From positions 1 to 64,000 of the forward strand of contig JAIORJ010000094.1 of NCBI GenBank assembly GCA_021108185.1: 64,000 nt of DNA. Reading direction: 5' to 3'. Below are positions 425-6,302 of this stretch, piece by piece (position 1 is the stretch's first letter; every line of letters begins with the position of its first letter). This DNA is from Methanococcoides sp. (GTDB lineage: Archaea; Halobacteriota; Methanosarcinia; Methanosarcinales; Methanosarcinaceae). The position numbers and the translations under genes are program-made. The notes under the pieces were generated by a model that was given only the letters and a program-made list of their open reading frames with translations, did no database searches and was not told where the DNA came from.

Positions 425-860
425 ATTATCATCTCTGTGTCCCGGCAATATCCGAGTATTCACAATGCATCCACTGGCAGTCGAGAATATAAGCATACTT
501 TCAGACAAAAGGGATTTAAAGCATTTAATTATGAAAAAGAAGCTTATTAGAACCCTAGAAAACGTATTGAATATTAATAAACCTTTAAATTGATAATATA
601 ATACAAAATTTCAATATTCTTTATTGAAAAATAATTTGAATAAGATGATGTTGATCTATCATCAAAGAAACTTAATAGATACTAATAAAAGAGATGAAAA
701 TTGCATATATCAATAATATAGATATAGAAATGTATTTAATAGACATTTAAATTCTCTTTTTAGCAATGAAGGATAAATAAAGCATATTGAAGTTAAAAAA
801 GCTCAAAAAATACATATTTCAATATACGAAAAAACAAAATACTGTCCCTTCATAAAGTAT
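425..860. other. AT-rich divergent intergenic region without a gene
   Basis: This stretch separates two divergent exported-protein genes. It is very AT-rich, has stops in all frames, and shows no tRNA-like or strongly paired structure. It holds several TATA-like runs (for example near 722 and 833), so it probably carries promoters for both flanking genes, but I can place only the rightward one with any precision. Confidence 0.5.
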
Positions 861-869
861 GTTTATATC
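861..869 (+). promoter_or_regulatory. TATA box of the lipoprotein operon
   Basis: The sequence TTTATATCT lies 62-70 nt before the ATG at 931 and predicts transcription starting near 890. A longer reading frame opening at 859 would begin inside this box, which is one reason to reject that earlier start. Confidence 0.45.
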
Positions 870-930
870 TTCAATAGCAGAACTGGAAGTATTCATTGAT
901 CGCATTGATCTGGGAAAGAGGATTATCAAA

Positions 931-1862: not shown

Positions 1863-2654
1863 ATGAAGTCCATCACAATTATATTCTGGATCGCCATCAT
1901 CCTGGCATCAATGCCATTAGCAGGTGCAGATAGCACTGCCACCATACATGGTGTGGTTTATGAGTGGGACACGTTCGAACCGACGGATAATGCATACATA
2001 GAGATAAACACCACACCCACCCAGTCCATAGTTCCACAATACGGCATCTACTCATTAGAATTACCTCCGGGAAACTACCTGATCACAGCTACTTCATACA
2101 AAGAGAACACCCTTGAATATTCCACAGAAGTTCCACTGACTATCACTGACAATGGCACCTATGTGATCGACCTTTTGCTGATGCCTGTTTATTCAGACAT
2201 TGTAGAGAGTGAAGAAGATGAGAAACAGCCAACTTTACAGGCTAGTACATTTTCGATAGCAATCTACATTTTACTTGCGATCATACTAATGGTAGCAATT
2301 GAAAGAACGACATCAAGAAATAAAACAGATCAGAAAAAGCACTACATTAGACCGGAAATCGAGATAACAGAATATTCAGCACCCGAACATGCTGAAGAAG
2401 TACTACCCGAAGATGAGAAATTAACATATCCTGAAGACATGGAAGACCTACCTTCAGACCTGCAGGAAATTGTGAAAATACTCCTATCCAATGATGGCCG
2501 TATGACACAAAAGGACATTCGAAGCAGGATAGATTATTCAGAAGGAAAGGTTAGTATGATGCTAAACGATCTTGAGAAAAATGGTTGGGTTGAAAAAAGG
2601 AAGCAGGGAAGAGGAAATATTGTATTCCTGAAAAATGAGCATGAACGAGAATAA
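1863..2654 (+). CDS. Membrane-anchored winged-helix regulator with extracellular beta domain
   Basis: The product has 263 residues. Domain order: signal peptide/anchor (1-22, ending PLAGADS); an extracellular carboxypeptidase-regulatory-like (CnaB/PEGA type) beta domain about 23-115, with the typical IHGVVYEWDTFEP and PGNYLITATSYKE strands; one membrane helix about 130-148; an acidic linker; and a cytoplasmic winged helix about 195-260 (TQKDIRSRIDYSEGKVSMML, then a basic wing). The ATG at 1863 directly precedes the signal peptide; an in-frame ATG at 1812 lies inside the upstream gene. The architecture suggests a one-component transmembrane transcription factor, an inference from layout. Targets are unknown; the upstream lipoprotein and the downstream ABC operon are candidates. 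Confidence 0.72.
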   Translation: MKSITIIFWIAIILASMPLAGADSTATIHGVVYEWDTFEPTDNAYIEINTTPTQSIVPQYGIYSLELPPGNYLITATSYKENTLEYSTEVPLTITDNGTYVIDLLLMPVYSDIVESEEDEKQPTLQASTFSIAIYILLAIILMVAIERTTSRNKTDQKKHYIRPEIEITEYSAPEHAEEVLPEDEKLTYPEDMEDLPSDLQEIVKILLSNDGRMTQKDIRSRIDYSEGKVSMMLNDLEKNGWVEKRKQGRGNIVFLKNEHERE

Positions 2655-2850
2655 TTAATTGTTCTACATCAACCCTGCTTTTGAACGTATCTCCACTTTT
2701 TTGCGATTTACAGCATAACAAAAATAATTGATTTTTTTGAATTAAATACACTGAAACAATTCGAATTCAATTTTAATGCGATTAAATAGTTTTTTTAAGA
2801 ATTAAAAGCCTTGAAAAAGCTTCATCCCTAATTTAAATCTTATTTTTCAC
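2655..2850. other. AT-rich intergenic stretch
   Basis: There is no gene here. The stretch holds two loosely similar T-tract elements (T7 followed by GAATTAAA near 2732 and T7 followed by AAGAATTAAAA near 2790), either of which could act as a U-tract terminator for the upstream operon. The promoter and structured leader of the ABC operon follow. Confidence 0.4.
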
Positions 2851-2865
2851 TTAAATTATAAAGTA
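2851..2865 (+). promoter_or_regulatory. Promoter of the ABC transporter operon
   Basis: The TATA-like run TTAAATTATAAAGTA predicts transcription starting near 2882-2890. That leaves a 5' untranslated leader of about 135 nt before the ATG at 3024, which is unusually long for this window, where many genes look leaderless. Confidence 0.45.
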
Positions 2866-2890
2866 TCCTTATATTCAAGACCACTAATGC

Positions 2891-2977
2891 AGGGTTGTAC
2901 AAAGTGGTACTGAACCAGTGCCATTAGCACCACACCACCCCATGAATGGCACCTGTACCTTATCACCGATCAACCCT
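2891..2977 (+). ncRNA. Candidate structured 5' leader RNA (three nested helices)
   Basis: Three inverted repeats are nested and collinear. P1 is AGGGTTG (2891-2897) with CAACCCT (2971-2977). P2 is GGTAC (2906-2910) with GTACC (2955-2959). P3 is GTGCCATT (2918-2925) with AATGGCAC (2945-2952), enclosing a C/A-rich loop. The element starts at the predicted transcription start and ends about 46 nt before the ATG of the ABC operon. A cis-regulatory RNA is the simplest reading, but I cannot match it to any known riboswitch class. The pairing is seen in the sequence; the function is inferred. Confidence 0.45.
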
Positions 2978-3023
2978 ACAGGTGCTTTCATGAAAACAAA
3001 AAAGAGAAGAGACGATTGAAAAT

Positions 3024-3761
3024 ATGAATGGAACAGAGCGTGTTGAAATGCAAGAGAACAATGACCCGCTGATAAAGCTCAGTGATGTCTGGAAAACGTA
3101 CCAGATGGGAGAAATTGAATTTGATGCATTGAAAAATGTGGATCTGGACATATACAGTGGAGAATTTGTTGTGATCCTTGGGCCCAGCGGAAGCGGGAAA
3201 AGCACAATGATGAACCTGATAGGTTGCCTTGATGTTCCAAGTAAAGGCACCATACGGCTTGAAGATCAAGACATATCAAAGTTAAAGGAGTCTGATCTTG
3301 CACAGATTCGGGGACAAAGCATAGGATTCATTTTTCAGCAGTTCAACCTGATCCCCACACTCAATTCTTTAGAAAATGTCATACTACCCCTCGAGTTTCA
3401 GGAAGTGGACCCCGATATTGCTAAAAAGAGAGGACAGGAACTTCTGGAGATCGTGGGTCTTGGGGATAAACTTACGAACCTGCCTTCCCAGCTTTCCGGA
3501 GGACAACGCCAAAGAGTAGCTATCGCGCGATCACTGGCCATTGATCCACCCATAATCCTTGCCGATGAGCCAACCGGCAACCTCGACAGTAAAACCGGAA
3601 CCTACATACTGGAATTCCTGAACGAGATGCACAAAAAAGAGAAGAAAACGATCATTATTGTCACACATGATACCGAACCGATACAGTATGCAGACAAGAT
3701 AGTCTACATCAGAGACGGACAGGTCGAGAAGATAGAATACAGAAATAAGATGGAGAATTGA
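3024..3761 (+). CDS. ABC transporter ATP-binding protein, MacB/LolD type
   Basis: This is a cytoplasmic ATPase of 245 residues that should power the permease encoded at 5061. Visible motifs are Walker [10 protein letters not shown] (53-61), Q-loop IFQQFNLIP, signature [16 protein letters not shown] (about 153-168), Walker [14 protein letters not shown] and the H-loop VTHD. The ADEPTGNLD string and short length are typical of the LolD/MacB/FtsE group, whose complexes act mechanically on exported proteins or lipids rather than importing solutes. An in-frame ATG at 3048 is an alternative start. It is the first gene of a three-gene operon, 1 nt from the next. Confidence 0.92.
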
Positions 3762-3762
3762 T

Positions 3763-5064
3763 ATGAAAAAGACTATACTATTAATACTACTTTTCTGCAT
3801 GACCGCTGGAAGTGCTTCTGCAGCAATTTATGTGGATTCCTCAATGATAACGGTTGATATGTTAAATCAAAACCCTGATCCTGCAAGGCCAGGAGAGACC
3901 ATGGAGATCACCCTTAGTGTGATGAACGATGGAAATTCAGATCTTGAAGATGTTACAGTTACCATCGAACCGGAGTATCCATTCTCAAAAGTGACCGGCG
4001 AATCGTTAACCCAAACAATACCATATCTGAACTCCCGACAGGATGACGATGATGCTGCCATACTCAAATATAAACTTTTTATAGATAATGATGCACCAGA
4101 AGACCTGTATGAGCTGGATATAGTTGTAACTGACAGTGAGAACGGCGCTACGATCACAACAACCGTCAATATTGACGTCCGTGGAAAGGAATACGCACAG
4201 ATCGTCACTATTACTAAATCAAAAATCGACATAGCAACCGAAGAACCGCTTGAGTTTATTGTAACCAACACCGGAAATTCACCCCTGAAGAACATGGTGA
4301 TCTCATGGGATGAAGAAAGCGGAGTTGTTCTGCCGGTATATTCTGATAACACTAAATATATCGCCTACCTCGATGCCGGCGAGTCTGCAACGGTAAGCTA
4401 CACCGTAATGGCTGATGTGAATGCAATTCCCGGGCTTTATCAGCTGGATATCTGCCTGAGTTTTGAGGATTATGATTCAAACATAAATGAGATAACTACG
4501 AAAGCCGGACTTTTTGTAGGAGGAGAAACCGATTTTGATGTTTCGTTCTCTGAGAGTGCAAGTGGGGAAGTCTCACTTTCTGTTGCCAATGTGGGCAACA
4601 ATGAAGCATATTCCGTGAAAGTGTCAATTCCGGAACAGGATGGGTACACAGTTACAGGAAGTTCTTCGACCATTGTGGGAAACCTGGAAAAAGGAGATTA
4701 TACGATCACTTCTTTCAACATTGTCCAATCTGCAAATGTTGCGACAAACGAAAATAGTGATGATGAAAAAACTGGCACAGGAGAAAATATACCCGCAGGC
4801 CGATCTGCCGGCAGAAGTTCAGGTAATGAACTGACAGCCATTATCGAATATACTGATTCGACTGGTCAGAGACTTTCAGTTGAGAAAAACGTTGATATTT
4901 CATTTACCTCAGGTGCAACTGGAGAAAATGATGTAGCGTATGCCAAGAACAGGAATGCAAGTAGTGGGACCAGCACTAGCACATACTTTCTGATCCTCAC
5001 AGCAATCGTTGTAGGAGCTGCTGTAGTATATAAAAAGAGAAAGGACAAGGAAAGGGAACAATGA
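3763..5064 (+). CDS. CARDB/COG1361-type surface protein of the ABC operon
   Basis: This surface protein has 433 residues. Residues 1-20 are a signal peptide (AGSASAAIYVD). The ectodomain has repeated immunoglobulin-like CARDB-type modules with the recurrent hallmark of hydrophobic residues around NDGNSDLEDVTV, NTGNSPLKNMVI and NVGNNEAYSVKV. A low-complexity Ser/Thr/Gly linker is followed by one C-terminal membrane helix (about 402-422) and a Lys/Arg/Glu tail. The SD GGAG lies in the 3' end of the ATPase gene and the stop overlaps the permease ATG by 4 nt, so translation is probably coupled. By position it is the surface or adaptor subunit of the transporter, analogous to the membrane-fusion partner of bacterial MacB; this is an inference. 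Confidence 0.8.
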   Translation: MKKTILLILLFCMTAGSASAAIYVDSSMITVDMLNQNPDPARPGETMEITLSVMNDGNSDLEDVTVTIEPEYPFSKVTGESLTQTIPYLNSRQDDDDAAILKYKLFIDNDAPEDLYELDIVVTDSENGATITTTVNIDVRGKEYAQIVTITKSKIDIATEEPLEFIVTNTGNSPLKNMVISWDEESGVVLPVYSDNTKYIAYLDAGESATVSYTVMADVNAIPGLYQLDICLSFEDYDSNINEITTKAGLFVGGETDFDVSFSESASGEVSLSVANVGNNEAYSVKVSIPEQDGYTVTGSSSTIVGNLEKGDYTITSFNIVQSANVATNENSDDEKTGTGENIPAGRSAGRSSGNELTAIIEYTDSTGQRLSVEKNVDISFTSGATGENDVAYAKNRNASSGTSTSTYFLILTAIVVGAAVVYKKRKDKEREQ

Positions 5065-6302
5065 GGTATAAAACATCTCTTAAACTTGCGACCAACATCC
5101 TTCTGCACAGTAAGATAAGAAGTTGGCTGACCATCATTGGCATCGTCATAGGTGTTGCATCAGTAGTTAGTATCGTTGCTCTTGGAGATGCAATGACGGA
5201 AAGTGTTGAGAGTAGCTTTGAGGATATGGACCTTACGATAATAACCGTCACACCCGGATATTCCGGTGCTCAGTCATCCATGGGACCAGGCAGGAGTGGA
5301 GGCGGAGGTGCTGCCACCACCACTGATGAAGATGAGCTTACGGATAAAGATATAATGGCACTTCGATCGGTCGAAGAGATAGAGTACATGTACGGTCAGA
5401 TCAGTGGGAAAGCCGATGTCGAATATACGGGAGAAACTGCATCCCTATCAGTTACCGGAGTGGACCCACAGGTGTGGAAGTACACATCTAATATGGACTA
5501 CGATTCAGGCCGTGCCCTTGAACCATCGGACAACTATGCGGCAGTGATCGGATACAATGTCGCAAATGAATTGTTCGATCAGCCAATTGGAGTGAACCGA
5601 GTTATAACAGTTGAAGATAAATCTGTAAGAGTGGTAGGAATACTGGAAGATGGGGAGAGCAATAATGCAATAATAATGCCGATCGATGCTGCGATCAATA
5701 TTATAGACGATGCCGAAAAAGACGTATACGGATCGATAGTGATAAAGGTTGAAGACGAAGAGGTCGTTGAATCGGCTGTTGAGGAGATAGAAAATGCCCT
5801 TCTTATCTCACGCCATGTTGCTGAAAAGGACAGGGATTTTTCAGTAACAGATTCAAAATCACAGATGGACGGAGTATCTGATATGGTGTCATCAATGACG
5901 TACTTCCTTGGCGCAATTGCGGCAGTGTCCCTTATAGTCGGTGCAGTGGGAATTGCGAATACGATGTTCACTTCCGTAATGGAAAAGACAAAGGAGATCG
6001 GCACAATGAAGGCCATTGGTGCGAAGAACGGGGATATCATGATCATATTTGTTATGAACTCTGCACTTGTGGGTTTTGTTGGCGGTTTTTTAGGAATAGT
6101 TCTTGGAGAGATAGTTTCACGAGTCATCATACCAATGAGCGGATTCCAACTGGGCCGTACAACTGCATCGACCACCGGGCTTTCCCCCGAACTGATGGTC
6201 CTTGGGATAGGACTTGCAATGTTGATAGGAGTTATTTCCGGCGTGATTCCTGCATACAGTGCATCAAAGATGAAGCCTATAGATGCTCTGAGATATGAAT
6301 GA
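5061..6302 (+). CDS. MacB/FtsX-type ABC transporter permease
   Basis: The membrane component has 413 residues in the classical MacB layout: helix 1 at about 20-45 (IRSWLTIIGIVIGVASVV), a large extracellular MacB_PCD domain (about 46-270), then three C-terminal helices (about 282-305, 330-355, 372-398) with the FtsX-like motif TKEIGTMKAIGAKNGDI. The ectodomain carries a Gly/Pro-rich insertion near residue 75-90. It overlaps the preceding gene by ATGA. A strong hairpin terminator follows, so the operon ends here. Confidence 0.92.
   Translation: MRYKTSLKLATNILLHSKIRSWLTIIGIVIGVASVVSIVALGDAMTESVESSFEDMDLTIITVTPGYSGAQSSMGPGRSGGGGAATTTDEDELTDKDIMALRSVEEIEYMYGQISGKADVEYTGETASLSVTGVDPQVWKYTSNMDYDSGRALEPSDNYAAVIGYNVANELFDQPIGVNRVITVEDKSVRVVGILEDGESNNAIIMPIDAAINIIDDAEKDVYGSIVIKVEDEEVVESAVEEIENALLISRHVAEKDRDFSVTDSKSQMDGVSDMVSSMTYFLGAIAAVSLIVGAVGIANTMFTSVMEKTKEIGTMKAIGAKNGDIMIIFVMNSALVGFVGGFLGIVLGEIVSRVIIPMSGFQLGRTTASTTGLSPELMVLGIGLAMLIGVISGVIPAYSASKMKPIDALRYE

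Follow-up and report, generated by a model that had tools for sequence, protein, structure and literature searches.

To our knowledge, few classes of structured leader RNAs are known in archaea. Cis-regulatory leaders such as riboswitches, protein-binding leaders and thermometers resemble the RNA considered here in that it is a structured 5′ UTR, in this case in front of an exporter operon, and in that it has conserved loops and, in one clade, mutually exclusive folds; it differs from them in being known from sequence alone and in lacking a gathering-level match in Rfam. The operon shares a MacB_PCD/FtsX permease and an ABC ATPase with ABC exporter operons of the MacB/LolCDE type, but this archaeal version adds a secreted NEW3/CARDB protein, an upstream gene for a membrane winged-helix protein and the leader RNA. 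Long leaders are common in Methanolobus psychrophilus and Methanosarcina mazei, which belong to the same family; in the former, about 51% of the 5′ UTRs exceed 50 nt and 24% of the leaders exceed 150 nt, and the accessible portions of that study name no conserved structured leader at the operon discussed here (PMC5378194). The analysed window, 64,000 nt of a Methanococcoides sp. contig (JAIORJ010000094.1, positions 1–64,000, forward strand), contains at 2885–3023 a segment which in our judgement is probably a diverged member of a family of structured 5′ leaders of MacB operons in the Methanosarcinaceae, acting in cis after initiation.

The leader precedes, on the + strand, the genes for a MacB/LolD-type ABC ATPase (3024–3761; Pfam ABC_tran, E = 4.5e-33), the secreted NEW3/CARDB-domain protein (3763–5064; NPCBM_assoc and CARDB) and the MacB/FtsX permease (5061–6302; MacB_PCD, E = 7.7e-35; FtsX, E = 2.6e-22). 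Just upstream and on the same strand lies the gene for the membrane protein with a C-terminal winged helix (1860–2654; DUF7343, E = 1.5e-18), a neighbour common to most relatives. A search for the ATPase in genome contigs retrieved distant ATPases only. The leader is present in a single copy in the own genome, so that a repeat or mobile element was rejected, and four congeners carry leaders of about 90% identity. It is far more stable than its shuffled versions (z = −4.4, 0/200). The MFE structure contains two hairpins on the + strand, P2 (2903–2925; AGTGGTACTG-AAC-CAGTGCCATT), which is also placed by the covariance model, and P4 (2941–2992; CATGAATGGCACCTGTA...TACAGGTGCTTTCATG), which carries TGGCACC...GGTGC and is equivalent to a covarying GGTGGCACC...GGTGCCACC in other genera. 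The C/A-rich segment between them (ACCACCCC, 2934–2941, +) is conserved; its CCACCCC is invariant within the clade of the five closest species, and most other genera have ACCACCC. In the MFE register P2 is found in 5/5 close relatives with zero mismatches. An alternative register, 2904–2911 paired with 2926–2933, corresponds to P2 of other genera and to the family model; it contains a mismatch in the window and is mismatched in three of the five clade species.

The region preceding the ATG at 3024 is unpaired in the MFE structure, and no RBS is sequestered. This finding speaks against an RNA thermosensor or cold-responsive leader, as was proposed for the long 5′ UTRs of psychrophilic Methanolobus on the basis of a cold-dependent choice of 5′ UTRs and predicted RBS-masking stems (PMC5378194). 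As melting of GC-rich 10-bp stems is also not expected in the growth range, we consider such a function highly improbable. Further candidate features of the segment were discarded or remained local. A short ORF at 2888 (MQGCTKWY) is not preserved in relatives, and an additional helix P3 (ACCACC:GGTGG) is unsupported, one locus (L161) maintaining P4 by compensation with ACCACCC unaltered. A pseudoknot between the 5′ G-run and the P4 loop could form in the species of the window clade (91% of cells) and was not demonstrable elsewhere.

A preliminary description of the locus had proposed another fold, in which three nested helices at 2891–2977 form the leader structure. The underlying inverted repeats are indeed present, collinear and perfect, on the + strand: an outer helix of 7 bp (AGGGTTG, 2891–2897, with CAACCCT, 2971–2977), a middle one of 5 bp (GGTAC, 2906–2910, with GTACC, 2955–2959) and an inner one of 8 bp (GTGCCATT, 2918–2925, with AATGGCAC, 2945–2952). 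Of 300 dinucleotide-shuffled versions of 2885–3023, 2 contained a chain of three nested perfect helices totalling at least 20 bp. The folding energy of the nested set is, however, −23.0 kcal/mol, compared to −33.1 kcal/mol for P2 plus P4 and −37.8 kcal/mol for the MFE structure. The nested fold is thus 10–15 kcal/mol worse than P2/P4, with an equilibrium probability of about zero, and the two structures are mutually exclusive because P2 and P4 occupy strands which the nested set needs. Over the five closest species, 92.9% of the cells are paired in the nested fold and 96.0% in P2/P4 including the P2 extension. No double compensatory change was found in the nested helices among these species, and within the same clade no P2/P4 pair has changed on both sides, so that the five species cannot alone prove either fold. 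In view of its energy and the missing compensation, the nested fold was rejected as the ground state. Compensatory changes, on which the preliminary description wished its helices to be judged, are absent from these in the five species and present, at the family level, in P2 and P4.

The promoter also had to be redrawn. Conservation of the TATA box previously assigned to 2851–2865 is confined to the five-species clade, and the box was probably misplaced; the invariant element is a 16-mer at 2860–2875 (+; AAAGTATCCTTATATT), which differs from the family consensus TAAGTATSCTTWTATT at the first base only and probably includes the TATA box, with the candidate CTTATATT at 2868–2875. Across 48 loci the element contains about 2 bits at most positions. 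A second conserved element (AAAAAGCTTCAT, 2814–2825, +) lies upstream at near-constant spacing from the 16-mer, and the 48 promoters carry the respective box (AAAGCTT) some 44 to 38 nt before the 16-mer (about −44 to −38). Because conservation of 2851–2865 does not extend beyond the five species, the start probably lies about 10 nt downstream of the position originally proposed. Combined with the TATA-to-start spacing of 19–22 nt given for M. psychrophilus (PMC5378194), the element probably positions the start nearer 2894–2897 than 2885, and the 5′ arm of the outer nested helix would therefore be mostly untranscribed. An exact match to the 15-bp core of the element occurs just twice in the own genome, each time within this gene cluster. 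An exact copy at 486–500 of the window (−) points left, towards a divergent gene; another at about 856–870 (+), which is looser and has two mismatches, precedes a lipoprotein gene at 931 with little space for a leader. A leaderless uORF within the element (ATG in TAAGTATG; MLLFK..) was rejected, the ATG being replaced by ATC/ATA in the window and several loci and the frame being shifted in L158.

Regions upstream of MacB permease genes were collected, and 112 genomes were searched across the family. In 48 MacB-operon leaders from at least seven genera (genus and family names of the compared genomes as we infer them) the 16-mer is followed at a fixed distance by an abnormally stable structure, commonly consisting of P2, ACCACCC and P4, to which a further hairpin, P5, is added in other genera. 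With positions counted from the element, the mean folding z is about 0 through the promoter (−160 to +50) and, in MacB leaders, −1.8 at +20 to +70 (P2) and −1.5 at +80 to +130 (P4); leaders of the second copy reach −2.7, −2.6 and, at +140 to +190 (P5), −5.3. P2, ACCACCC, P4 and P5 are well conserved in one genus (g10), where most genomes with a match contain two copies separated by about 2.8 kb; one of them precedes a unit of lipoprotein and winged-helix genes, the other the MacB ATPase. Most g10 copies also carry, 3′ of P5, a small ORF of roughly 55–80 codons, which in most copies (L237–L266) begins about 13–17 nt past P5 (e.g. MENIRDSLKQFIDSRLQEA...VRKLDPGQ); a Pfam search of this ORF family gave no hit. 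P5 and the small ORF are present in g10 and absent in the window clade, and the window copy may therefore be degenerate. A different hairpin repeat (GAGGCACC...CCACCACGCTT...GGTGCCTC) is dispersed in the g10 genomes, as many as 9 matches being found in one genome; it may represent small RNAs or a mobile repeat.

Among 27 g10 sequences 95% of the cells are paired, and two-sided changes affect 11 of the 20 pairs, compared to 1–3 in slid controls. When more genera were added, 18 of 20 pairs changed on both sides in a structure-fitted alignment including two antisense rows (alignments A8 and A10 were both fitted to the structure, and A8 holds the antisense rows). A tree-based null, a re-implementation in which substitutions were replayed on a FastTree tree, yielded for 43 sequences 5 of 20 P2/P4 pairs with E < 0.05 (slid controls, 0–1), and five of the top six covarying pairs overall are stem pairs; in a purely sequence-based MAFFT alignment including P5 just 2 of 32 pairs are significant. 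G-U outnumbers A-C in the pair cells by about 10:1 (71 vs 7), a count to be read with the preference of RNAalifold itself for G-U, and the excess argues for the sense RNA as the selected molecule. The inverted repeats might otherwise be conceived as protein-binding operator sites in the DNA near the promoter, given that they adjoin a strongly conserved promoter element and a winged-helix gene. The sense-RNA signature, the conservation of pairing despite stem sequences that differ between species, and the extension of the structure in other genera to at least 130 nt beyond the 16-mer leave little room for this explanation, to which we attach only a very low probability.

The relationship of the window to this family was assessed with two covariance models. 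When 2600–3200 (601 nt) was searched with model R2, trained on g10 alone, the best match fell on the leader (E = 0.006). Against 295 kb, the window scores weakly with this model (11.7 bits, E = 3), and the weak matches of R2 include leaders from species of the window clade and the sister clade. Model R3, whose training set includes three relatives of the window clade and leaves out the window itself, detects the leader genome-wide at E = 5.1e-5, finds two copies in a genome unused in training (G081) and gives no match in genomes from other families of the order. The window contains the promoter, P2, ACCACCC and P4 of the family, with P2 in another register than in the model. Since R2 places its best local match on the leader and R3 recovers the window genome-wide, the window is likely a member of the family, in a short version without P5 or small ORF. 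A search of Rfam 15 produced no gathering-level match in the window and 12 homologous loci, the best sub-threshold match having E = 3.4. None of the open-access papers searched describes such a leader. Of the preliminary description, a structured leader outside the Rfam classes, in front of a MacB-like operon and conserved in the Methanosarcinaceae, has thus been retained, while the specific nested fold and the placement of the TATA box and start have not been upheld, and its functional labels (riboswitch, protein-bound leader or thermosensor) stand as candidate roles.

The cassette is found in other gene contexts as well. In the Methanosarcina-type genome G081 the promoter-P2-P4-P5 unit is duplicated (L284, reverse complement, at about 1828 and 4466); the copies precede a DUF1566-like secreted protein and an operon of a membrane protein, a FAD protein (flavoprotein) and a ferredoxin, named by inspection of the sequence without a Pfam run, and no MacB gene is nearby. 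P5 is located there roughly 200–300 nt from the next gene, and simple SD masking is therefore unlikely at these loci. The 16-bp element was also observed before other envelope-type genes across the Methanosarcinaceae (e.g. L287–L306), judged by eye to encode lipoproteins, secreted repeat proteins and a VTC-like protein; in many cases an upstream AAAGCTT and a P2-like stem accompany it. The element probably marks an envelope regulon, and the leader would best be read as an undescribed class of structured 5′ leader belonging to a cell-envelope regulon. A more far-reaching proposal, which we put forward only tentatively, is a portable archaeal cassette of invariant promoter and P2-P4-P5 leader that senses an envelope signal via binding of a ligand or protein and, by switching between two mutually exclusive folds, governs exporter, secreted-protein and surface-redox genes as one regulon.

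Two simpler or more classical roles have to be weighed against the reading of the leader as a regulatory RNA of its own class. The hairpins could be passive, P2 sitting near the mRNA 5′ end and P4/P5 merely guarding against decay, without sensing or switching; P2-like stems of differing sequence which follow this promoter element in front of further envelope genes, the occasionally large distance of P5 from start codons and the maintenance of pairing while stem identity varies would fit such a role. Conserved unpaired segments (ACCACCC, CCAACCACATCC and the CTATCC loop) and an order of three helices that genera share and that persists before new downstream genes exceed what protection needs, which renders a purely protective function rather unlikely. 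Somewhat more doubtful still is a classical metabolite riboswitch, in which the C/A-rich single strands and helices would form an aptamer controlling the exporter. The conserved loops, the modular nature of a cassette found ahead of exporter, secreted-protein and redox genes and the two mutually exclusive folds of a sister clade are in line with a riboswitch, but core conservation across genera is weak, no Rfam class matches, an expression platform common to all members is lacking and the downstream genes indicate no single ligand.

In this sister clade (L155, L156, L157 and L162), P2 competes with a long-range helix of 13–16 bp (CCTCTCAAGGTGG:CCACCTTGAGAGG). A T-A to C-G double change in L162 preserves the long-range helix and introduces a mismatch into P2, and in L157 an insertion on one side of the helix is matched by a change on the other. 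The helix also covers a GGAGG-like segment. These folds are the best hint at a putative two-state switch, which may act on translation, decay or elongation; the sister clade shows one compensatory change, and in the window the alternative fold is 10–15 kcal/mol worse.

Returning to the favoured reading of a structured cis-acting leader, we propose the following scenario. Transcription would begin around the base of P2. Once folded, the leader would act in cis after initiation and thereby set how strongly the downstream operon is expressed. Most likely, binding of a protein or ligand would shift the balance between P2/P4 and the competing long-range pairing, and the membrane winged-helix protein (DUF7343) encoded upstream is a candidate for regulating the same promoter at the DNA level. 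The leader combines covarying helices and a distribution spanning genera with a tie to a single promoter element and a single type of operon; it is also found before unrelated genes. With these traits, control after initiation becomes open to direct tests in methanogens, perhaps in the genetically tractable Methanosarcina.
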